Of a stretch of DNA of 32,190 nucleotides, positions 2,201 to 10,735 are shown piece by piece. Every line of letters starts with the position of its first letter. The stretch's first letter is position 1. The DNA comes from a bacterium. Lineage in GTDB: Bacteria > Patescibacteriota > Minisyncoccia > Phycocordibacterales > Zambryskibacteraceae. The notes beneath the pieces are model-generated. The model had not been told where the DNA came from, did no database searches, and saw only the letters and a list, made by a program, of their open reading frames with translations. The stretch is taken from assembly GCA_030674415.1 (NCBI GenBank), contig JAUSGP010000005.1, positions 1 to 32,190 of the forward strand, written 5' to 3'. The position numbers and the translations under genes were made by a program.

Positions 2201-2775
2201 GTACCTTGAAATCAGCACTGGTTAGCGACGGCAACCGTCTAGAAAATTATCACGGACCCGCAGTCAGACTGGCTTCAAAAGTACGGTTTCTATCCTGCGG
2301 AGGAACTACGTTCCTCCGCTCCAGAGGCTCAAAAGCCTGTGGGGCGGGGGTGGGTAAGGTGGCCTTAATACCGCATAGGGAGTCTTCCCCTTCAGCAAGG
2401 GAAGTATGCGGAACCAGACGCGAGCACAGACTCGCGGAGGGTAAACCAAGATGGGACGAGTTTTGTGCCTGAAGCCCCGTGAAGCTGCACGGTGTGCTAC
2501 GTCCCAGCCCGAACCCACTCCCCGCGATGTTCTTTTACAAAAAGTGGCTAACACCACTAGAGGACTGGAGGCAGAAGCCACCAAGATCCTCGCTCGGGCA
2601 GGTTTCAAGCCCGATGGCCAACGCAAGTCGATTCGCCGGGAAAGTGTGAGAGCAATCTCCACTCCCTGCGGCGGCAAGCCTGGTTATCGGAGGCGATAAC
2701 CGCCGGGTGCGTCATCTTCGGCCAAGGCACCGAAGTTGCTCCAAAATCCAGGAGTGTAAAAGCATGGGTAAGAAT
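2201..2775 (+). ncRNA. Large (~570 nt) structured non-coding RNA leading the island
   Basis: No SD-led ORF. Many strong local stems: GACGGcaaCCGTC (2227-2239), GCGGAGGAACtacGTTCCTCCGC (2297-2319), GCATA..TTCCC..GGGAA..TATGC nested stem, CGCGAG..CTCGCG, TCGGGC..GCCCGA, GGTTATCg..gCGATAACC. Contains TGTTCTTTTACAAAAA at 2528. Confidence 0.6.
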
Positions 2776-2868
2776 GGGTGAGCGGTAAAATATCGCTCGC
2801 CCTCCCATCAAAGCTTTCAAACTTTTGAAAATTTTGATGGGAAATGATTCCCAAATGTTCTTTGGAGA
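2776..2868 (+). promoter_or_regulatory. Island module 1: hairpins A-B-C plus boxA-like site
   Basis: A GGGTGAGCG..CGCTCGCCC (2776-2802); B CCCATCAAAG..TTTTGATGGG (2804-2841); C GGGAAATGATTCCC (2839-2852); TGTTCTTTGGAGA from 2856. Confidence 0.75.
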
Positions 2869-2875
2869 TAAAAAG

Positions 2876-3067
2876 ATGCTGAAAAAGATCGGTTTGTCTG
2901 TCCTGTCGGCGTTTTTCGCTGGCGGAGCAGTTCTCTGGTTCTGGGTTGCCTATACGCAATCCAATCCAGAGATGGCGAGGGCGGCTTTCATGATCGCTCT
3001 CGGCCCCACCACGGCCGCAATCCTCTTTGCCCACAAGGCGAGATGGATCAACAAACCCAATCGTTGA
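2876..3067 (+). CDS. Small two-TM membrane protein (63 aa)
   Basis: In-frame ATG after GGAGA SD: MLKKIGLSVLSAFFAGGAVLWFWVAYTQSNPEMARAAFMIALGPTTAAILFAHKARWINKPNR. The longer ORF start (2825) lies inside the structured module. Confidence 0.65.
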   Translation: MLKKIGLSVLSAFFAGGAVLWFWVAYTQSNPEMARAAFMIALGPTTAAILFAHKARWINKPNR

Positions 3068-3090
3068 TGATTGGGTTCCCACCAAAACAT

Positions 3091-3299
3091 GTCCAAGTCG
3101 GTGCAGCGGCTCGAGGACAACAACACTTCATTTAGGGACCTGCGAAAAGCACTGTAAGTGCTACACGGGCCCAGAAAGCTTGAAGTGTACGGTCTCAAAA
3201 GATCGAGATCACTGGGTTCGAATACGGGTGGCTTAGTGCTCTTCCGAAGGAGGTGGCCACAGCCCGTTATTCCATAGAACCTGGACTGCAACGTTCTTT
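3091..3299 (+). ncRNA. Pseudoknot-containing RNA element, copy 1
   Basis: GTCCAAGTCGGTGCAGCGGCTCGAGGAC ... CCTGGACTGCAACGTTCTTTAAAA; loop UGCAG (3102-3106) complementary to CUGCA (3286-3290). Confidence 0.6.
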
Positions 3300-3303
3300 A
3301 AAA

Positions 3304-3388
3304 GCCGAACTTCGGTTCGGCTTCCATCAGAGTTCTGAAAACTTTCAGAGTTGTGATGGGGAATGTTCCCCGCTGTTCTTTTCAGGAG
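3304..3388 (+). promoter_or_regulatory. Island module 2: hairpins A-B-C plus boxA-like site
   Basis: A GCCGAACTTCGGTTCGGC; B CCATCAGAGTTCTGAAAACTTTCAGAGTTGTGATGG; C GGGGAATGTTCCCC; TGTTCTTT 3374. Confidence 0.75.
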
Positions 3389-3393
3389 ATTAT

Positions 3394-3714
3394 ATGCCCA
3401 ATACGTTTGCCGAACTGGTCGTCCGGATCAACAATTCGGACAACGGGACTCTGTTCCAGCAGATCTGCGCAATGTTCGCGCAGGTCAGCACGATGGACGC
3501 TAACAGCGTTATCGTGTGCTGGCAGGCTCTCGACATGGTGAGGAGTCTGGACTCCCGCCACGGCTGCACCATTGCAGTCGACAAGCTCCAGCGCGCCTTG
3601 ATTGCCAGGATGCAAGTCCTGAGCAATCAAGAGTTTCCCCACGCCGTCCTCTACAACAGGATGACGCTGCGGGAAAAATTCAGATCAGTAATCGGTCCCG
3701 GGAGAGGGCTGTGA
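3394..3714 (+). CDS. Hypothetical protein (106 aa), island gene
   Basis: SD CAGGAGA before ATG 3394: MPNTFAELVVRINNSDNGTLFQQICAMFAQ...; translation of the upstream extension crosses the hairpins. Confidence 0.7.
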   Translation: MPNTFAELVVRINNSDNGTLFQQICAMFAQVSTMDANSVIVCWQALDMVRSLDSRHGCTIAVDKLQRALIARMQVLSNQEFPHAVLYNRMTLREKFRSVIGPGRGL

Positions 3715-3724
3715 TCTGGGCGCC

Positions 3725-3828
3725 GTCAGTCTCATTAGGTAACTGACGTTAAAGGGAGTTAAGCTGCCCGTCCGTCGTGTAGGACAAAGTGCTGATGACC
3801 AAGCGTCTGCCGGAGCGTCATCCCGGTG
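3725..3828 (+). ncRNA. Element D copy 1 plus post-stop hairpin E1
   Basis: Aligns with 6218-6322: ...GTTAAGCTGCCCGTCCGTCGTGTAGGACAAAGTGCTGATGA...GTCTGCCGGAGCGTCATCCCGGTGCTG; paired positions differ compensatorily. Confidence 0.6.
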
Positions 3829-3830
3829 CT

Positions 3831-3900
3831 GATTCGCAAGAATCGGCTTTCTATCAGAGAACTGAAAAATCAGTCTTCTGACGGGAAGCTGAAACTTCCC
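3831..3900 (+). promoter_or_regulatory. Island module 2b: hairpins A-B-C leading into pseudoknot element 2
   Basis: A GATTCgcaaGAATC; B TCAGAgAACTGA..TCAGTcTTCTGA; C GGGAAGctgaaaCTTCCC (3883-3900). Confidence 0.55.
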
Positions 3901-3908
3901 AAAACCAG

Positions 3909-4125
3909 AGGTCCAAGCCGGTGCAGCGGCTCAAGGACTGAGAGAGTTCAAGTTCACCTTTTAAATCCCAACTCTCTGGACGCTCAGAATCTGCTTTTGG
4001 ACTCGTGGAGCAATGCTCGCGAAATCCTAGCAGGAGCGCAAGGTGAATGGTGAACGTAAGTTCATCACCGAGGGCGGCGTGCCAAGCATGACTTGTCACT
4101 CTGCTCCGGACTGCACACGTTCTTT
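3909..4125 (+). ncRNA. Pseudoknot-containing RNA element, copy 2
   Basis: GGTCCAAGCCGGTGCAGCGGCTCAAGGACT ... CCGGACTGCACACGTTCTTT; GUGCAG (3921-3926) complementary to CUGCAC (4111-4116). Confidence 0.6.
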
Positions 4126-4194
4126 CTATAGGAGGTGAGTATGTAGACGCATACGTGTGCCGGCAGGTTGAGAGCGAGCCGGCACTGTCATTCA

Positions 4195-4280
4195 GCCGAA
4201 CTTCGGTTCGGCTTCCATCAAAGTTTTTAAACTCTTGAAAATTTTGATGGGACAATTCCGTCCCGAAAGTTCTTTGAGGA
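4195..4280 (+). promoter_or_regulatory. Island module 3: hairpins A-B-C plus boxA-like site
   Basis: A GCCGAACTTCGGTTCGGC 4195-4212; B CCATCAAAG..TTTTGATGG; C GGGACAATTCCGTCCC 4249-4264; AGTTCTTTGAGGAGA 4268. Confidence 0.75.
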
Positions 4281-4287
4281 GAGTGCT

Positions 4288-4662
4288 ATGCAGAATATCA
4301 TCGTTGGCGTGTCTATCCCGGACAACTACCAGATCGGCTCCAAAACCGAAGGTCGGCGGATGGCGGTGCACAGTTGGGATCTCACGAAGAGTGAGAGACT
4401 GACCACCGCCACCTACGGCAGCCGGCAGCACTCAACAACTTGGTTCGAGGACTGCGAAGTTCTCGACGCCGAGGGGGAGCTACCCGAAGCCCTGCACATT
4501 CTCGTCCGCTGTGGGCGTGAGTGGAATGGGTCGATCGGCGGGTCGTCGTGGTTCGCCAGTGAAGCTTTTGTCTCACGAGAACGTGCTGAAGAGTACGTCG
4601 CCAAGTGGGAGTCGGAGCTCAGCTGGTACTGGATCGTCACAACAAGGAGGTGTATCGAGTGA
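4288..4662 (+). CDS. Hypothetical protein (124 aa), island gene
   Basis: MQNIIVGVSIPDNYQIGSKTEGRRMAVHSWDLTKSERLTTATYGSRQHSTTWFEDCEVLD...; SD GAGGAGA. Confidence 0.75.
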   Translation: MQNIIVGVSIPDNYQIGSKTEGRRMAVHSWDLTKSERLTTATYGSRQHSTTWFEDCEVLDAEGELPEALHILVRCGREWNGSIGGSSWFASEAFVSRERAEEYVAKWESELSWYWIVTTRRCIE

Positions 4663-4674
4663 GTATAGCGTCTG

Positions 4675-4691
4675 CCGGAGCGTAATCCCGG
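4675..4691 (+). ncRNA. Post-stop hairpin E2
   Basis: CCGGAGCGTAATCCCGG, bulged C, conserved CGUAA loop. Confidence 0.5.
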
Positions 4692-4693
4692 TA

Positions 4694-4742
4694 CTGTTCA
4701 GAGATGCGTATCTCTGCTGATGAGCTCAAAAGAGCGAAACAG
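4694..4742 (+). ncRNA. Hammerhead-ribozyme-like motif, copy 1 (stem III open)
   Basis: CTGTT|CAGAGA tgcgta TCTCTG CTGATGA GCTC aaaa GAGC GAAACAG: all core strands (CUGAUGA, GAAA, NUH) and three stems present; predicted cleavage after U4698 (GUU site). Confidence 0.7.
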
Positions 4743-4762
4743 AAATTCTTTGAAATTTGGGT

Positions 4763-4801
4763 CCCCATTAGATAATTCAATTTTTGAATTATCTAATGGG
4801 G
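4763..4801 (+). repeat. Isolated B-type hairpin
   Basis: CCCCATTAGATAATTC aattttt GAATTATCTAATGGGG, perfect stem, preceded by AATTCTTTGAAAT. Confidence 0.6.
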
Positions 4802-4904
4802 AGATGTCACTACGCGAGGACAGGGAACAACAGAGCTAGCGTGCTAACGCCACGTGAATACTGCCCGCTGAAACTCCGTGATGCATGACTCTTCCCAAGT
4901 AACA

Positions 4905-5084
4905 CGGTCCAGGCCGGTGCAGCGGCCAGAGGACTAGTGGATTCGCTCGCCTGGATTGGTGGGCGGATGGCGACGAGTTCTCGTCGCAACCAGGTATAAG
5001 ACCGGGGGTTCAAATCGCTTCTGAAGGAGGTGCCCCGACCGGTGATAGAGTACCTGGACTGCACACGTTTTACTTTTGTTCTTT
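4905..5084 (+). ncRNA. Pseudoknot-containing RNA element, copy 3
   Basis: GGTCCAGGCCGGTGCAGCGGCCAGAGGACT ... CCTGGACTGCACACG...TGTTCTTTCAAAA; GUGCAG (4917-4922) complementary to CUGCAC (5059-5064). Confidence 0.6.
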
Positions 5085-5103
5085 CAAAAAGGAGATTAGA
5101 GAG

Positions 5104-5355
5104 ATGATGATCGGCCTTTCGAACTCGGAAGCCAGGGCTCGTTTGGTTGAGGGTGTGGTGTCCGACGATCGTCGCGACATCATCGGGCCGAACGGCCTGA
5201 AGTACAAGGTCAAGAACTACCTTGTACCCACCCTCATCCCAGGAGAGAAGGTGCGGTTCATTCCGCATCAGCGCTCCTGGAAGAGTCAGACCTATGCCGG
5301 CGAGGTCTGGCTGCAAAACGAGCGCCATCGCCGGCGCAAACCCGATCCTTCGTGA
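5104..5355 (+). CDS. Hypothetical protein (83 aa), island gene
   Basis: SD AAGGAGA before ATG: MMIGLSNSEARARLVEGVVSDDRRDIIGPNGLKYKVKNYLVPTLIPGEKVRFIPHQ...; stop lies at the loop/stem edge of hairpin A (5339-5362). Confidence 0.7.
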   Translation: MMIGLSNSEARARLVEGVVSDDRRDIIGPNGLKYKVKNYLVPTLIPGEKVRFIPHQRSWKSQTYAGEVWLQNERHRRRKPDPS

Positions 5356-5422
5356 TCGGGTTCCCATCAAAGTTTTCAAATCATTGAAGATTTTGATGGG
5401 AAATGATTCCCAAATGTTCTTT
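5339..5422 (+). promoter_or_regulatory. Island module 4: hairpins A-B-C plus boxA-like site
   Basis: A AACCCGATC..GATCGGGTT; B CCCATCAAAG..TTTTGATGGG 5363-5400; C GGGAAATGATTCCC 5398-5411; TGTTCTTTACAA 5415. Confidence 0.75.
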
Positions 5423-5440
5423 ACAACAGGAGAAGAGATA

Positions 5441-6205
5441 ATGAGAATTCTGGTAATTGACGACAACCCTCTTCATCATGCAAGTGCTCGGCAGACGCTC
5501 GGTGGCCACGAGGTCACGATCGTCGGCACGTACGACGAGGCGCACAAGCTCCTTGAGGAGCCGAGAGCGCACTGGAAAGCCGTGAATGATGAACTGGAAC
5601 GCCGCGGCTTCAAGAACCCATACGCGCCGAACATGACCGCGGAAGAGCGGGCGGCGGCGCGGGCCGAAGAGAAGCGCATTGAGCAGGAGCTCTGTCCGCC
5701 TCCGCCGTTCGAAGCCGTTCTCTCTGACTTGCTCATGCCAGCAAGCAGGATGACCATGGGTCCGGAAGGAGAGAAGTACATCGGGCAGGAAATGCCGGTG
5801 GGCTTCGCTCTCTCGCTCATGGCGGCTCTTCACGCGAAGTACGTGGCGGTCGTGACGGCAACCAACCATCACAACCATCCGGCCTCCGCCATGCTCGACG
5901 CCTTTGAGTCGAGATGCACCCACGAGCACGATTCGGTAGGCAAGCCCCCTCGTTTTGTCATCAACGGAGCGCGTGTCGGTTTCTACCACGCGCCGATGAC
6001 ATTCGTGGAGGGTACCACCTGTCCGGATTGCGGCGGCAGCGGCGACAAGGAGGTCTGCTACTGCGTCGAGCGCAACGCCGGCGTGGCCAAGCCTGATTGC
6101 GACACCTGCAAAGGTGCCGGCCGTCAGTGTTGGACTTGCCGCAATACCGGCAAGCAGTGGGGCAAGGACTGGGGCAAGGTCCTAACTCATATCACTGCTG
6201 GATAG
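5441..6205 (+). CDS. Response-regulator-receiver-like protein with C-terminal DnaJ-type zinc-binding repeats
   Basis: MRILVIDDNPLHHASARQTLGGHEVTIVGTYDEAHKLL...FEAVLSDLLMP... resembles REC; C-term CPDCGGSGDKEVCYC...CDTCKGAGRQCWTCRNTG is a CxxCxGxG-type cluster. SD AGGAGA; ATG 5441 preferred over 5222. Confidence 0.75.
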   Translation: MRILVIDDNPLHHASARQTLGGHEVTIVGTYDEAHKLLEEPRAHWKAVNDELERRGFKNPYAPNMTAEERAAARAEEKRIEQELCPPPPFEAVLSDLLMPASRMTMGPEGEKYIGQEMPVGFALSLMAALHAKYVAVVTATNHHNHPASAMLDAFESRCTHEHDSVGKPPRFVINGARVGFYHAPMTFVEGTTCPDCGGSGDKEVCYCVERNAGVAKPDCDTCKGAGRQCWTCRNTGKQWGKDWGKVLTHITAG

Positions 6206-6217
6206 CGGTGATAGCCC

Positions 6218-6322
6218 CGTGAGGCTTATCAGATAACTCACGTTAATGAGCGTTAAGCTGCTCGCCTGTTGTGTAAGGCAAAGTGCTAATGATCTGACGT
6301 CCGCCGGAGCGTCATCCCGGTA
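6218..6322 (+). ncRNA. Element D copy 2 plus post-stop hairpin E3
   Basis: GTTAAGCTGCTCGCCTGTTGTGTAAGGCAAAGTGCTAATGA...GTCCGCCGGAGCGTCATCCCGGTACTG; see copy 1. Confidence 0.6.
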
Positions 6323-6333
6323 CTGTTCTTTCC

Positions 6334-6417
6334 GCCGAACCTCGGTTCGGCTCCTACCAGAGTTCTGAAAAACTTCAGAATTGTGGTGGGACAATCCCGT
6401 CCCCTGTTCTTTGAGGA
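6334..6417 (+). promoter_or_regulatory. Island module 5: hairpins A-B-C plus boxA-like site
   Basis: A GCCGAACCTCGGTTCGGC; B ACCAGAGTTCTGAA..TTCAGAATTGTGGT (covaries with ATCA/TGAT elsewhere); C GGGACAATCCCGTCCC; TGTTCTTTGAGGA 6405. Confidence 0.75.
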
Positions 6418-6421
6418 AAAA

Positions 6422-6559
6422 ATGAAGAAGAAAATTCTTCGACTGCCTCGCGCACCACTACCGCGCCAGACTGGTGGATACCACAGTCCGGACAAGGGTC
6501 GCGGTGCCTACAACCGCCAGCATGAAAAACTGGCCACCAAAAAGGAGACGCAGGAATGA
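6422..6559 (+). CDS. 45-aa basic small protein
   Basis: Below ORF-track cutoff: MKKKILRLPRAPLPRQTGGYHSPDKGRGAYNRQHEKLATKKETQE; SD GAGGA; stop overlaps next ATG (ATGA). Confidence 0.65.
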   Translation: MKKKILRLPRAPLPRQTGGYHSPDKGRGAYNRQHEKLATKKETQE

Positions 6560-6768
6560 TGATGAAAACGATCCCGCAGCAGGTTCAGCGTCCTCGCGTT
6601 CACCAGCCACTGTTTCTGAAACAGAAGCTCGTCTGCTCGATGTGCAAGGTTAGGGAAGTGATCCCGCCGATTGCCGTCTGCTCGCCCTGCTTACAAATCC
6701 TCAACCAGAGGCGCAAGGAAGCAGAGAAGAGTGGGCGTCCGTGGTGGCGGCGATGGTTCTGGGGCTAA
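6556..6768 (+). CDS. Small zinc-ribbon-like protein (70 aa)
   Basis: CSMC-x14-CSPC; translationally coupled to upstream ORF by ATGA overlap. Confidence 0.65.
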   Translation: MMMKTIPQQVQRPRVHQPLFLKQKLVCSMCKVREVIPPIAVCSPCLQILNQRRKEAEKSGRPWWRRWFWG

Positions 6769-6783
6769 ATCACCCAGCGTCTT

Positions 6784-6800
6784 CCGGAGCGTCATCCCGG
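6784..6800 (+). ncRNA. Post-stop hairpin E4
   Basis: CCGGAGCGTCATCCCGG, same motif as E1-E3. Confidence 0.5.
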
Positions 6801-6802
6801 TA

Positions 6803-6851
6803 CTGTTCAGAGATGCGTATCTCTGCTGACGAAGTCGAAAGACAGAAACAG
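6803..6851 (+). ncRNA. Hammerhead-ribozyme-like motif, copy 2
   Basis: CTGTT|CAGAGA tgcgta TCTCTG CTGACGA AGTC gaaa GACA GAAACAG; stem II differs from copy 1 by a compensatory C-G to G-C change but has an A.A at its base. Confidence 0.6.
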
Positions 6852-6852
6852 A

Positions 6853-7131
6853 TGTTCTTTAAAAAAAATCTGCCTGCTTCCCAGAAAGTTCCTGAAATAT
6901 ATTCGGTACTTTTCTGGGGCGCAGGTATGGACAGATACCTTGGACGCCCGGGAAGCCTCCCACCCAATAACCACCTTAAGTCTGACGAGACAAGAGGAGA
7001 ATGGTTATTTGGTTAAAAATCGACCTTGACTTCGCGCTGGTCGATTAGGCCGCTCTTTGCAGGGATCGGAATAGGCATTCCTAAAGGTCTCGGATGATGC
7101 AACATTTGAGACCACTGTCCACCGTTCTTTT
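6853..7131 (+). ncRNA. ORF-less structured interval bounded by two boxA-like sites
   Basis: TGTTCTTTAAAA (6853) to CGTTCTTTTT (7123); stems CCAATAACCA..TGGTTATTTGG and AATCGACC..GGTCGATT. Confidence 0.4.
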
Positions 7132-7132
7132 T

Positions 7133-7215
7133 GCCGAACTCATGTTCGGCTTCCGTAAAAGTTTTTAAATCATTGAAAATTTTTACGGGACAATTTGGTC
7201 CCAACCTGTTCATTT
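7133..7215 (+). promoter_or_regulatory. Island module 6: hairpins A-B-C plus degenerate boxA
   Basis: A GCCGAACTCATGTTCGGC; B CCGTAAAAG..TTTTTACGG (compensatory vs CCATCAAAG/TTTTGATGG); C GGGACAATTTGGTCCC; TGTTCATTT. Confidence 0.7.
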
Positions 7216-7239
7216 CATCATCAGAAGGATGGCTTGGCT

Positions 7240-7599
7240 ATGGAAAAGAAGTTTGTTCTCTCTATTGTCGAATCCGAGAATACGAAGTATGGGTATAACC
7301 CATGTGAGTGCTCGGATTGCACCCACTGGAGTATCAACTTCGAGCCCTCGGCAGACGAGGCGGCGGTGAAGGAGCTTTGCGATTTCGTCAATCGAGTATC
7401 TCACTCGAAAGGCAAAATCAAGGAGCTTGGGGAGAAGGAGTGCAAATTCCTGTCGGCCCTTTTGGGAATCAACATCACAGGAGGTCTTCCTTATGTTGAA
7501 GCTAGATACTGGGAATACCAGGAACCTAGACCCGAACCGCCACCATCATCTGTTTCCGAGGCATTCCGGAGGTTGCACAATCTTAAGCGGGGATCCTAG
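7240..7599 (+). CDS. Hypothetical protein (119 aa), island gene
   Basis: MEKKFVLSIVESENTKYGYNPCECSDCTHWSINFEPSADEAAVKELCDFVNRV...; in-frame ATG after the module. Confidence 0.65.
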   Translation: MEKKFVLSIVESENTKYGYNPCECSDCTHWSINFEPSADEAAVKELCDFVNRVSHSKGKIKELGEKECKFLSALLGINITGGLPYVEARYWEYQEPRPEPPPSSVSEAFRRLHNLKRGS

Positions 7600-7635
7600 T
7601 GAATCCATAAGCTAGGGCGAGACCGCAGTGCATAT

Positions 7636-7725
7636 GGGTGAGCGGCAAAATATCGCTCGCCCTCCCATCAGAGTTTTTCAAAAATTGGAAAGTTCTGATG
7701 GGACAATAGTGTCCCTGTGTTCTTT
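7636..7725 (+). promoter_or_regulatory. Island module 7: hairpins A-B-C plus boxA-like site
   Basis: A GGGTGAGCG..CGCTCGCCC; B CCCATCAGAG..GTTCTGATGGG; C GGGACAATAGTGTCCC; TGTTCTTTCACA 7718. Confidence 0.75.
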
Positions 7726-7746
7726 CACAGCCTAAGGAGTGCGTCC

Positions 7747-8199
7747 ATGAAAAGCGTTGAAAAAGAGTTACCAGAAGTCTACGGGATCATCTCCCGCGAC
7801 CACGCCCAAAACGGCAAGAACAGCGCTGTCTCCAAGTACGTGAACGGCGGGTGTACCTCGGATTCAGCAGAGCCAGTACTGGCACTCGTGATGCCCTATT
7901 TCGAGAGCTACGAGATGTCCAGGCTCCTCGCTCTGTATGATGCGGTCTGGAGCGCTCATCAAGTCGGTCTGTTGCACCACATCAATTTCAGCAACAGGAA
8001 GATCAGAGAGGAGGCGCGCAAGTACGGCATCTCTGATGATCGGGTGTGGCCAGCGAAGCTCGTGGACATCGAGGAAATCAGCGTGGGCGACCCGGAGGAT
8101 ATCGGGTCTGCCATTGCGGAGATCCTCAGTGTCCTCATGAAAATGAGAGACATGGAGAGCTTCCTCGAGACTCGCGCCGATCAACTTCTGAGTTCTTAG
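7747..8199 (+). CDS. Hypothetical protein (150 aa), island gene
   Basis: SD AAGGAGT; MKSVEKELPEVYGIISRDHAQNGKNSAVSKYVNGG... Confidence 0.7.
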   Translation: MKSVEKELPEVYGIISRDHAQNGKNSAVSKYVNGGCTSDSAEPVLALVMPYFESYEMSRLLALYDAVWSAHQVGLLHHINFSNRKIREEARKYGISDDRVWPAKLVDIEEISVGDPEDIGSAIAEILSVLMKMRDMESFLETRADQLLSS

Positions 8200-8215
8200 G
8201 AATAAAATACGTCCA

Positions 8216-8232
8216 CTGGCGCGTAAGCCCAG
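8216..8232 (+). ncRNA. Post-stop hairpin E5 (covarying stem)
   Basis: CTGGCGCGTAAGCCCAG: C-C/G-G pairs of other copies replaced by T-A and C-G pairs; CGUAA loop kept. Confidence 0.5.
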
Positions 8233-8237
8233 TATCG

Positions 8238-8336
8238 TCCGAGGAAGTCATATATCCTCGGACTTCCTTCAGAGAATTTAACTTCGGTTGAATGTTCTGA
8301 AGGAACGAATGGTTCGTTCCATGTTCTTTGAGGAGA
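8238..8336 (+). promoter_or_regulatory. Island module 8: hairpins A-B-C plus boxA-like site
   Basis: A GTCCGAGGA..TCCTCGGAC; B CCTTCAGAGAATTTAACttcgGTTGAATGTTCTGAAGG; C GGAACGAATGGTTCGTTCC; TGTTCTTTGAGGAGA 8322. Confidence 0.75.
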
Positions 8337-8343
8337 TAAAAAG

Positions 8344-8733
8344 ATGGAAACAGAAAAGGATTTGTTCGAGCTTGAAATGGAGGAGAAGCGGAAGCAGGAA
8401 CCTCCGATCTCATCCGATAACCCCGCACCCTTCAAACAGCCGTTTCTGGTCATTACGTTCAAAGATCAGAAAATCCACGGCAACGTTGCCGACGGCTGGC
8501 ACGTCGAAGTCGACGGTCAGATTCAGAAGTACTTCGAAGAATTCACGGAGCGCACTCTCGAATGGGCTCCGCCGTTCAATTCAATGCACCGCGCGACGCC
8601 GCTTCTGAGGAGCATCGTCGAGTACTTCGCGAGCCGTGGCATGGAGGTCGCGAGTGTGGCCACGTACGCCGGATCGGCTGGCCCATCACATGTACTGAGG
8701 AACGGGGCGTTCTTCAAGCGCATGAGGTTCTAA
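8344..8733 (+). CDS. Hypothetical protein (129 aa), island gene
   Basis: METEKDLFELEMEEKRKQEPPISSDNPAPFKQPFLVITFKDQKIHG...; SD GAGGAGA. Confidence 0.7.
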   Translation: METEKDLFELEMEEKRKQEPPISSDNPAPFKQPFLVITFKDQKIHGNVADGWHVEVDGQIQKYFEEFTERTLEWAPPFNSMHRATPLLRSIVEYFASRGMEVASVATYAGSAGPSHVLRNGAFFKRMRF

Positions 8734-8754
8734 CGTTCATTAAAAGGAGGTAAT

Positions 8755-8853
8755 ATGCCACCGGATTCAAAAGGGATAGCTGAGCGGCCCGATTCAAGAC
8801 TCAGCCCTAGATCTTCGAGGTTTAGAGAGGTAACGGTACGTGCCTTCACGTGA
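8755..8853 (+). CDS. Possible 32-aa small ORF
   Basis: Strong SD AAAAGGAGGTAAT-ATG; MPPDSKGIAERPDSRLSPRSSRFREVTVRAFT. Confidence 0.4.
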   Translation: MPPDSKGIAERPDSRLSPRSSRFREVTVRAFT

Positions 8854-8864
8854 TCCGACCTAAT

Positions 8865-8968
8865 GGGGAAGAACCAAAACTTGGCCAACCTTCCCCTTTC
8901 ATCTAAGGTTTTAGAAAATTGAAATTTTAGATGAGAGAATAGTTCTCTCAATGTTCTTTGAGAAAAGA
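8865..8968 (+). promoter_or_regulatory. Island module 9: hairpins A-B-C plus boxA-like site
   Basis: A GGGGAAG..CTTCCCC; B TCATCTAAGGTTTTAG..AAATTTTAGATGA; C GAGAGAATAGTTCTCTC; TGTTCTTTGAGAAAAG 8952. Confidence 0.75.
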
Positions 8969-8974
8969 GGTGTC

Positions 8975-9298
8975 ATGTATCGAAGGATCGAACCTCCAGG
9001 CAGCTCGGCTATGACTCTTGGTTGCGAGGCAATGTGTCAGTCTGGTCTTCCGGATCCCCGCGGTTGGGTTCAAGGCACTCGACCAGTCGAATATTTCTTC
9101 ACCGAATACGGCTGGCGCAAAAGCGGTCATGCAGTTCTGAGCGAAATTCGCTCAAAGGGTGTTATCGCCAAAGTGATCGCAGTGAAGGAAAGGGACCCTC
9201 GTATCCATGTTCGCTACCAGGACAAGTGGCAAGTGATTGTCACCTGGGGATGTCGAAAGGAACATAACTCCAAACGAAGGGTATCAACCCAAAACTAG
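8975..9298 (+). CDS. Hypothetical protein (107 aa), island gene
   Basis: In-frame ATG after AGAGGTGTC: MYRRIEPPGSSAMTLGCEAMCQSGLPDPRGWVQ... Confidence 0.6.
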   Translation: MYRRIEPPGSSAMTLGCEAMCQSGLPDPRGWVQGTRPVEYFFTEYGWRKSGHAVLSEIRSKGVIAKVIAVKERDPRIHVRYQDKWQVIVTWGCRKEHNSKRRVSTQN

Positions 9299-9307
9299 GA
9301 GTGAGAA

Positions 9308-9508
9308 ATGTTCTTCGATAACCATGAAATTTTGGTCCAGGGTTCCACGCTTGTAGGTATTCAGAATGTAACCTTGCTTTGCAAGATTCACGACGAGCTC
9401 GAGCTCCTAATCATCGACACCCAAGCAATAGTGCCCGGCAAGATCGTTCGTTTAAGATGTCCGTATTGCAGAATGCTTGGCTACCTGATCACTAGCAAAG
9501 CTGAGTAA
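9308..9508 (+). CDS. Hypothetical small protein (66 aa)
   Basis: SD TAGGAGTGAGAA-ATG; MFFDNHEILVQGSTLVGIQNVTLLCKIHDELELLIIDTQAIVPGKIVRLRCPYCRMLGYLITSKAE. Confidence 0.6.
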   Translation: MFFDNHEILVQGSTLVGIQNVTLLCKIHDELELLIIDTQAIVPGKIVRLRCPYCRMLGYLITSKAE

Positions 9509-9518
9509 TAACTTGATC

Positions 9519-9605
9519 GGGCAAACTATGTTTGCCCTTCCGTCAGAGAGCTGAAAGATTTCAGAATTCTGACGGGACAATTCCGTCCCGTGTTCTTTGA
9601 GTGAA
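9519..9605 (+). promoter_or_regulatory. Island module 10: hairpins A-B-C plus boxA-like site
   Basis: A GGGCAAACTATGTTTGCCC; B CCGTCAGAGAGCTGAAAGATTTCAGAATTCTGACGG; C GGGACAATTCCGTCCC; TGTTCTTTGAG 9591. Confidence 0.75.
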
Positions 9606-9619
9606 GAGGAAGTGAAAGA

Positions 9620-9883
9620 ATGGAACAGCATCTGTCGGTTGCTCAAGCCGCAAGCGAAGTAATCCAACACGCCTGCGAGAATTTCTCTACCACGAGCCGA
9701 CAAGACGAACTTTGTGGAGAGATCCTCGCCGCTCTCACGATTGCGGCCAGGGTAGACATCCAGGCAAGGGAGCGCCACGCCTTTGTCTCTAGATGGCAAT
9801 CGCTTCTTCCGGAAGTCCTTCGTGCCAACGGAAGAGCGGTTTTTGCAGTCATCGTGGAGCAGAAGCTAGAAGAACTCCTTTAA
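9620..9883 (+). CDS. Hypothetical helical protein (87 aa), island gene
   Basis: MEQHLSVAQAASEVIQHACENFSTTSRQDELCGEILAALTIAARVDIQARERH... Confidence 0.65.
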   Translation: MEQHLSVAQAASEVIQHACENFSTTSRQDELCGEILAALTIAARVDIQARERHAFVSRWQSLLPEVLRANGRAVFAVIVEQKLEELL

Positions 9884-9894
9884 ACAAACGTTCA

Positions 9895-9911
9895 TCGGCA
9901 CGTAAGCCCGG
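9895..9911 (+). ncRNA. Post-stop hairpin E6
   Basis: TCGGCACGTAAGCCCGG, bulged C, CGUAA loop. Confidence 0.45.
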
Positions 9912-9913
9912 TT

Positions 9914-10006
9914 CCGAGGAAACCATAAATCCTCGGGTTTCCTTAAAAGATTTTCTAACAGGAAATTTTTTAAGGGGACAATTCCGTCCCAACTGTTCTT
10001 TGAGGA
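9914..10006 (+). promoter_or_regulatory. Island module 11: hairpins A-B-C plus boxA-like site
   Basis: A CCGAGGA..TCCTCGG; B CCTTAAAAGATTTTCTAACAGGAAATTTTTTAAGG; C GGGACAATTCCGTCCC; TGTTCTTTGAGGA 9994. Confidence 0.75.
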
Positions 10007-10388: not shown

Positions 10389-10676
10389 ATGCAACAGAGT
10401 GTGCTCGGCGAACTCATCACGCTCATTTTGGTCATCGTGATCATGCTCGGAGGCATGACAATGATCGTGGGCGGCCCGTCTCTTACGGGACGGTGGTACC
10501 GGTGGATCTTCCGAACTGTAGTACTCGCTCCCCTCGGTTGGGGGCTGCGCCAGATCGGCAGAGGCGTCGAGTGGCTCCTACGATGGAGCGCCCGACAACT
10601 CGGACGACTCCTACTCTATCTCGCTCGACTCACGGGCAGAGGTATCCACTACGCCTGGGTCAGGTTAACCACCTGA
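10389..10676 (+). CDS. Hypothetical membrane protein with amphipathic basic C-terminus (95 aa)
   Basis: MQQSVLGELITLILVIVIMLGGMTMIVGGPSLTGRWYRWIFRTVV...; SD GGAGGGTGT. Confidence 0.65.
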   Translation: MQQSVLGELITLILVIVIMLGGMTMIVGGPSLTGRWYRWIFRTVVLAPLGWGLRQIGRGVEWLLRWSARQLGRLLLYLARLTGRGIHYAWVRLTT

Positions 10677-10686
10677 CCCAGTTTTG
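10655..10686 (+). terminator. Intrinsic terminator closing the island
   Basis: CTGGGTCAGGT taacc ACCTGACCCAG TTTTGT; perfect 11-bp stem overlapping the last stop codon. Confidence 0.85.
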
Positions 10687-10735
10687 TCATATTCTAAGCC
10701 ATATTTTGATAAATTAGAGGTAAAAATAGACAATA

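Follow-up and report, generated by a model that had tools for sequence, protein, structure and literature searches.

What is the element that recurs in front of the small open reading frames (ORFs) of a genomic island in a member of the Zambryskibacteraceae, and what does it do to the transcript that carries it? The stretch of DNA analysed here, called the window throughout, is a complete contig (C36, 32190 bp) of a 485 kb patescibacterial genome that is 80% complete, and bears on its + strand an island of small ORFs extending from a TrmB-type regulator gene (884-1621) to the genes after ∼11.1 kb. The original prediction had placed at least 11 modules in this island, each consisting of hairpins A, B and C followed by boxA, a Shine-Dalgarno (SD) sequence and ATG. 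Eleven copies in exactly this order, all on the + strand between 2776 and 10001, were indeed present, and a weaker twelfth was detected with a covariance model. M1 to M11 are based on hand registration, pair counts and shuffled folds.

2776-2863, + strand: module M1 (A 2776-2802, B 2803-2842, C 2839-2852, boxA 2856-2863)
3304-3381, + strand: module M2
4195-4275, + strand: module M3 (boxA AGTTCTTT)
5341-5422, + strand: module M4 (hairpin A and the stop codon of the ORF upstream overlap)
6334-6412, + strand: module M5
7133-7214, + strand: module M6 (boxA GTTCATT, TGTTCATT)
7636-7725, + strand: module M7
8239-8329, + strand: module M8
8865-8959, + strand: module M9
9519-9598, + strand: module M10
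9914-10001, + strand: module M11
3829-3904, + strand: weaker twelfth A-B-C copy that lacks boxA and precedes a type-2 structured RNA (31.1 bits, E 0.0017)

The claim that a module precedes each cistron held for most of them, but ORFs 5104, 6556, 9308, 10389 and 10776 lack one, the first of these being preceded by a boxA that follows another kind of RNA. Hairpin A comprises 7-9 bp of freely variable sequence, B begins 0-2 nt after A and reaches up to 18 pairs, and C adjoins B without a gap, followed after 1-4 nt by boxA, the SD sequence and the start codon. Every copy had a better folding energy than any of its 200 dinucleotide shuffles (z between −3.5 and −7.8). When the eleven modules were registered by hand over 26 pairs (286 cells), 97.9% of the cells were paired (helix A 100%, B 96%, C 100%), with double compensatory changes at 22 of the 26 pairs and 61 doubly changed cells. 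The covariation score was 0.691 as compared with 0.213 after shuffling, none of 500 shuffles reached either the observed percentage or the score, and sliding the helices by 1-3 columns reduced pairing to 35-61% and the score to 0.06-0.21. Chance inverted repeats are thus ruled out by the shuffled folds and the pair covariation. A G-U pair was retained at column 45/66, being GU in 10 of the 11 modules.

Two covariance models, R1 built from the eleven window modules and R2 from 28 sequences, revealed ∼50 further copies in relatives across the order, the structure being kept by compensatory changes in ∼25 related genomes. Within the genus, 7 of the 17 genomes carried modules, and within the order 19 of 299, distributed over 15 genera; in a phylum-wide sample of 389, modules occurred in two genomes besides the window's own, G504 and G549, the former with the full A-B-C-boxA arrangement. 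In the 48 non-redundant modules of other genomes, 94.1% of the cells were paired (65.2% after shuffling), and double changes were found at 25 of the 26 pairs, both there and over all 58 sequences. In G statistics with average product correction over 3160 column pairs of the 58 sequences, ranks 1-19 were all A, B or C pairs, as were 23 of the top 30; this alignment was fitted to the covariance model and is therefore somewhat favourable, and the hand-made window alignment agrees with it. The proposal that the covariation reflects selected RNA structure is hence borne out over a broad set, and we consider the structure of the module near certain. In our reading, each module represents one copy of a new leader RNA. 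No Rfam 15 family matched the modules in the window, nothing with E ≤ 1 being found on their + strand. The motif (A/G)AG opposite UU(U/C)U is conserved inside helix B; a conserved unpaired core is missing, and A-B-C was for this reason rejected as a self-cleaving RNA. In family f46, an extra small hairpin (TTCCAnTAAA..CCTGACCGnAAACGGCAGGT..TGGAA) lies between boxA and the SD sequence (L095 4556-4650, 5013-5085 and 5389-5455, and L099).

The pairings originally listed for B and C are real, yet the two helices are not separate: the tract GGGA is both the end of the B 3' arm and the 5' arm of C. As this G-tract is shared, B cannot form its four outer pairs while C forms its first four, and vice versa. 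At least three of the four pairs were possible for both B-outer and C in 51 of 52 modules, and compensatory changes were seen in both, e.g. tracts GGAA, GAGA and GGGC with matching partners. C ranges in size from a 5-bp hairpin up to, in many copies, a domain of 47-128 nt; the closing helix of these large domains is longer (8-13 pairs in most cases) and likewise begins at the shared G-tract.

What follows C is a boxA of the ribosomal RNA (rRNA) type. Its sequence TGTTCTTT is present in nine of the 11 modules (the exceptions are M3 and M6), the core agrees with GYTCTTT at a fixed transcript position, which identifies it as boxA by sequence, and the tail holds G and C at fixed positions (GUUCUUU). 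All 17 + strand copies of GTTCTTT in the window lie within 2529-10001; the expectation for the whole window on both strands was 6.8, and none of 100 shuffles reached 19. Most of the window sites are situated ∼0-20 nt from the SD sequence. A nusB gene was found in 14 of 14 genomes examined. The proximity of nusB to the G504 island was taken as chance, the L32-nusB neighbourhood being ordinary-looking.

The A-B-C leader is not the sole occupant of the place before boxA, as hammerhead motifs were found in the same slot.

4693-4742, + strand: type III hammerhead motif followed by boxA-like ATTCTTTGAAA (RF00008 24.5 bits, sub-threshold; structural descriptor)
6802-6852, + strand: hammerhead variant (CUGACGA, stem II with an extra A on each side), recognized by sequence and followed by boxA at 6853
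2876-3067, + strand: first small ORF of the window, with two apparent membrane spans, led by M1

The motif at 4693-4742 has the canonical type III features (core CUGANGA...GAAA, stems I, II and III, a UH cleavage site and an open stem III) and coincides with a sub-threshold Rfam Hammerhead_3 match at 4698-4745. Matches to the structural descriptor lay in or near the module islands of G058, G101, G307 (three), G283 and G075, with none in 575 kb of reversed sequence, and a genome search added hammerheads in G001, G025, G060 and G032 plus one more in G307. The RF00008 gathering cut-off of 48.5 bits was not reached (best 42.7 bits, in G307; 24.5 in the window), and they are therefore called motifs and not certified family members. 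At the search threshold, a hammerhead match was present in 8 of 23 module-bearing genomes (nine with the G008 variant), as against 2 of 28 others. A hairpin usually lies directly upstream of stem III, and GTTC[TA]TT was found ≤20 nt downstream of 11 of the 15 motifs, where ∼0.04 would be expected by an estimate on uniform bases. The variant form, defined by CUGAYGA and a stem II flanked on either side by one additional A, also occurs in G008, where it leads a homologue of ORF 2876 (36% identity, E 2e-12 in a single comparison). As this ORF is led by A-B-C in the window and by the hammerhead variant in G008, the two elements fill the same position.

The island has the layout of a single operon of ∼8.5 kb of orphan ORFs, flanked by one strong + strand promoter and a strong terminator.

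2166-2194, + strand: sigma-70-like island promoter TTGACA-17-TATACT (11 of 12 consensus matches; region kept in G016 and G307)
2205-2535, + strand: long, structured 5' leader RNA with a terminal boxA (2528-2535; predicted fold −134 kcal/mol)
10655-10690, + strand: intrinsic terminator of the operon (terminator scan; the G016 island ends with a 31-nt stretch of 97% identity)

The nearest named relative is Candidatus Zambryskibacteria RIFCSPHIGHO2_02_FULL_43_14 (G016), whose TrmB-type regulator is 85% identical to that at 884-1621. The promoter and leader region of the two is 79% identical over 1821-2542, whereas most of the cargo differs. None of the island ORFs gave a Pfam match above the curated cut-off, leaving them as orphans, and the scan of ten of them against PHROGs yielded no confident family (one sub-threshold match, E 0.09). 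Few Pfam matches and no recurring function were found among 76 ORFs from related loci, flanking genes included, and a tRNA search in the island found none. In IMG/VR, seven contigs matched a loose B pattern, in which the covariance model found no module, and the hammerhead-boxA pattern had no match. A phage or plasmid origin was rejected, with no similar phage or plasmid DNA and no confident PHROGs family among the ten scanned ORFs. Among open-licence papers, we found no description of such islands in Patescibacteria.

One cassette is informative with regard to how the cargo changes.

8344-8733, + strand: orphan ORF led by M8, common with G016 (81% protein identity)

This is the only clearly shared ORF of the two islands, and its differences by codon position (15/12/48) indicate coding constraint. 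The cassette aligns with G016 from inside the 3' arm of helix B to the stop codon and no further; in A and the B 5' arm the two sequences have diverged with the structure kept. To judge from these alignment borders, this fits an exchange of cassettes at the modules; rapid compensatory drift could also have produced the pattern. The G016 homologue (L025:1092-1103) has TAA as its second codon (ATGTAA), and hence must use a later start or be a broken gene.

Hairpins resembling B were also encountered in front of transfer-messenger RNA (tmRNA).

Pre-tmRNA leader hairpins: L151/L104 (G183), L150 (G044), L184 (G058), L192 (G137), L191 (G022), L193 (G128)

The model match L104 is a tmRNA leader in which the end of helix B is the start of tmRNA, GGGGAUGAUC, this 5' end being placed by model and not by mapping. 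B-like hairpins pairing with the tmRNA 5' G-tract were likewise found in the other five genomes (z −2.9 to −9.5). The tmRNA 5' end is made by processing, and these hairpins may be related maturation leaders, which is a lead and not a proof.

The RNA structure with its covariation, the exclusive pairing potential of B and C, the identity and position of boxA, the hammerhead motifs in the slot and the operon layout suggest to us that A-B-C is a maturation or 5'-end leader which, like the hammerheads, individualizes the mRNAs of a boxA-protected polycistronic transcript; we put the probability of this reading at about 45%. The island would be one long transcript under Nus/boxA-type antitermination, with a boxA in every unit keeping RNA polymerase going through a long and poorly translated operon, as in rRNA operons. 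A fully formed B would hold the G-tract until, upon a cut at the B/C border or strand exchange, C closes, and the closed C would then lie at or near the 5' end of a downstream RNA that continues with boxA, SD sequence and ORF. Type III hammerheads would achieve the same by self-cleavage, after which the new 5' end would carry the stem I hairpin. B-like leaders may precede tmRNA in the same manner. The outcome would be capped single-gene messages, and cassettes may be swapped at breakpoints that fall within modules. What we infer beyond the observed features is the cut at B/C, the enzyme responsible, the binding of Nus factors and the effect on expression. RNase III, found in 13 of 14 genomes examined, is weakened as an obligatory cutter by G075, which has modules and no detected RNase III, so that the enzyme need not be RNase III.

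Several further observations weigh against a maturation leader. The cut sites are predictions from sequence, and a C hairpin of 5 bp would not normally be a substrate of RNase P. As A-B-C lacks a conserved unpaired core, it is probably no ribozyme itself. About 18 of 62 module matches are without a clear boxA. The tmRNA leaders are confined to six of ∼30 genomes looked at and absent in most others, and that of G183 alone scores clearly with R2. The wider proposal, that A-B is a general maturation leader of one patescibacterial order which serves small-ORF cistrons, non-coding domains and tmRNA and is exchangeable with self-cleaving hammerheads, is put forward as tentative.

Other functions can be envisaged for the same structures. 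Each module could be an attenuator or antitermination switch, in which C with the U-rich boxA forms a weak terminator or pause, an extended B is the antiterminator and NusB-S10 decides between them. The mutually exclusive B-outer and C, the closeness of boxA to the SD sequence and the terminator-like scores of the C hairpins with the following UGUUCUUU in about ten copies speak for such a switch, but its tail is a conserved boxA with fixed G and C, which a plain U-tract need not have, boxA also follows hammerheads and other RNAs that have no C hairpin, and many C domains are large; we regard it as unlikely. A boxA beside the SD sequence might alternatively be a translational repressor site that A-B-C presents or hides. 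In E. coli suhB, NusB/E on a BoxA 6 nt from the SD sequence represses translation and promotes Rho termination (PMC5725501), a precedent that the spacing of most window sites would suit. Repression at the SD sequence does not account, however, for boxA after non-coding RNAs of the island (the leader and type 2), and leaves A and B unexplained, which makes it distinctly unlikely as the function of the modules.

That many copies per genome stand before unrelated genes, and that (A/G)AG opposite UU(U/C)U is conserved in helix B, might instead point to a ligand- or protein-sensing leader, similar to a riboswitch or a ribosomal-protein leader, regulating a set of small proteins. With no conserved unpaired aptamer core and a freely variable sequence of A, this appears improbable. 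The repeats could finally act as DNA, i.e. as integron-like recombination sites of cassettes with the RNA structure as a by-product; the differing cargo of close relatives and the shared cassette, homologous from helix B to the stop codon, are in keeping with this. A DNA element would not, however, be expected always on the coding strand upstream of boxA-SD-ATG, the kept G-U pair at column 45/66 suits RNA, and hammerheads replace the element, so that such a role is highly improbable.

The island contains other structured RNAs besides the modules and hammerheads.

3091-3299, + strand: type-2 structured RNA copy 1 (GTCCA..GTGCAG..GAGGAC ... AAGGAGGTGGCC ... CTGCA, boxA)
3911-4125, + strand: type-2 structured RNA copy 2 (boxA at 4119)
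4907-5084, + strand: type-2 structured RNA copy 3 (boxA at 5077)
8207-8238, + strand: element D, a short hairpin between stop codon and module
Other element D sites: window 3804, 4669, 6298, 6778 and 9889; L024:243(−); L026:6960

The type-2 RNA is ∼180-210 nt long, its GTCCA..GTGCAG..GAGGAC hairpin loop being complementary to a downstream CTGCAC. Most copies contain AAGGAGGTG, complementary to the 16S 3' end, and most end in boxA. It occurs across families and was also seen at L025:1733 and L091:9126(−). Element D (ACGTC-nn-CCGG-loop with GCGT-CCGG) lies after ORF stops or before modules and hammerheads; it is possibly an H-type pseudoknot and might cap the 3' end of the RNA that lies upstream.

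A putative divergent − strand transcript (window 2000-1660) starts from its own promoter-like site (2028-2000) and contains tiny ORFs, e.g. AGGAGGGTTCTATGCACGACTAG (Met-His-Asp-stop); it has a counterpart at the corresponding place in L024 and is kept in G016. A first island ORF of ∼41 amino acids, M-x-x-LL-x-AL-x-GS-(K/R)-L...HYLLP-x-G-x-V, is common to three genomes and was not seen in the window.

Copies of the ∼41-amino-acid first ORF: L024:1188-1062(−), L091:11665-11540(−), L092:9724-9846

The RNA polymerase alpha C-terminal domain was matched by two scanned ORFs from related loci; the mutually related ORFs L095:3628-4476 and L094:4304-5152 (G075), which adjoin module islands, are by sequence candidates for this match.

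The results go beyond the original prediction in the overlap of B and C, the hammerheads in the same slot and the single-operon context. They provide a new RNA family, supported by covariance, from a vast bacterial radiation of which most members are uncultured, together with strong functional clues in the slot common to hammerheads, the G-tract common to a downstream domain or tmRNA, and the constant boxA. They also draw attention to islands of small orphan proteins, rich in RNA and quick to change, which gene finders handle as noise. How these bacteria cut and cap polycistronic RNA becomes testable. If the wider proposal is true, these reduced bacteria would individualize long boxA-protected transcripts by a mix of ribozymes and a previously undescribed processing signal.

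Among known systems, prophage hammerhead arrays (Perreault et al., 2011; PMC3088659) resemble the island in that several hammerheads flank single changing genes on one transcript; they cut polycistronic RNA, and their cleavage has been demonstrated in vitro and also, at one of the loci, in E. coli. The island differs from them in sharing the slot with a non-ribozyme A-B-C leader and in the boxA that mostly comes next, as well as in its patescibacterial host and the lack of a phage or plasmid DNA match. With rRNA-type boxA elements it shares the GTTCTTT fit to the GYTCTTT core and sites in non-translated leaders and just before SD sequences, and the same genus carries GCTCTTTAAAA upstream of 16S (G012). 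The difference from these and from the suhB boxA lies in the 17 copies of a single operon, mostly after structured RNA, which are candidate NusB-S10 sites. Integron cassette arrays likewise alternate variable orphan cassettes with a foldable element that recurs; here, however, that element stands upstream of each ORF, together with boxA and SD sequence, and an attC core and integrase are not established, no search for an integrase having been made. In pre-tmRNA 5' leaders, lastly, six genomes of the order show a B-like hairpin whose pairing partner is the G-tract at the mature 5' end, whereas the downstream RNA in the island is a small C hairpin or other domain plus mRNA.

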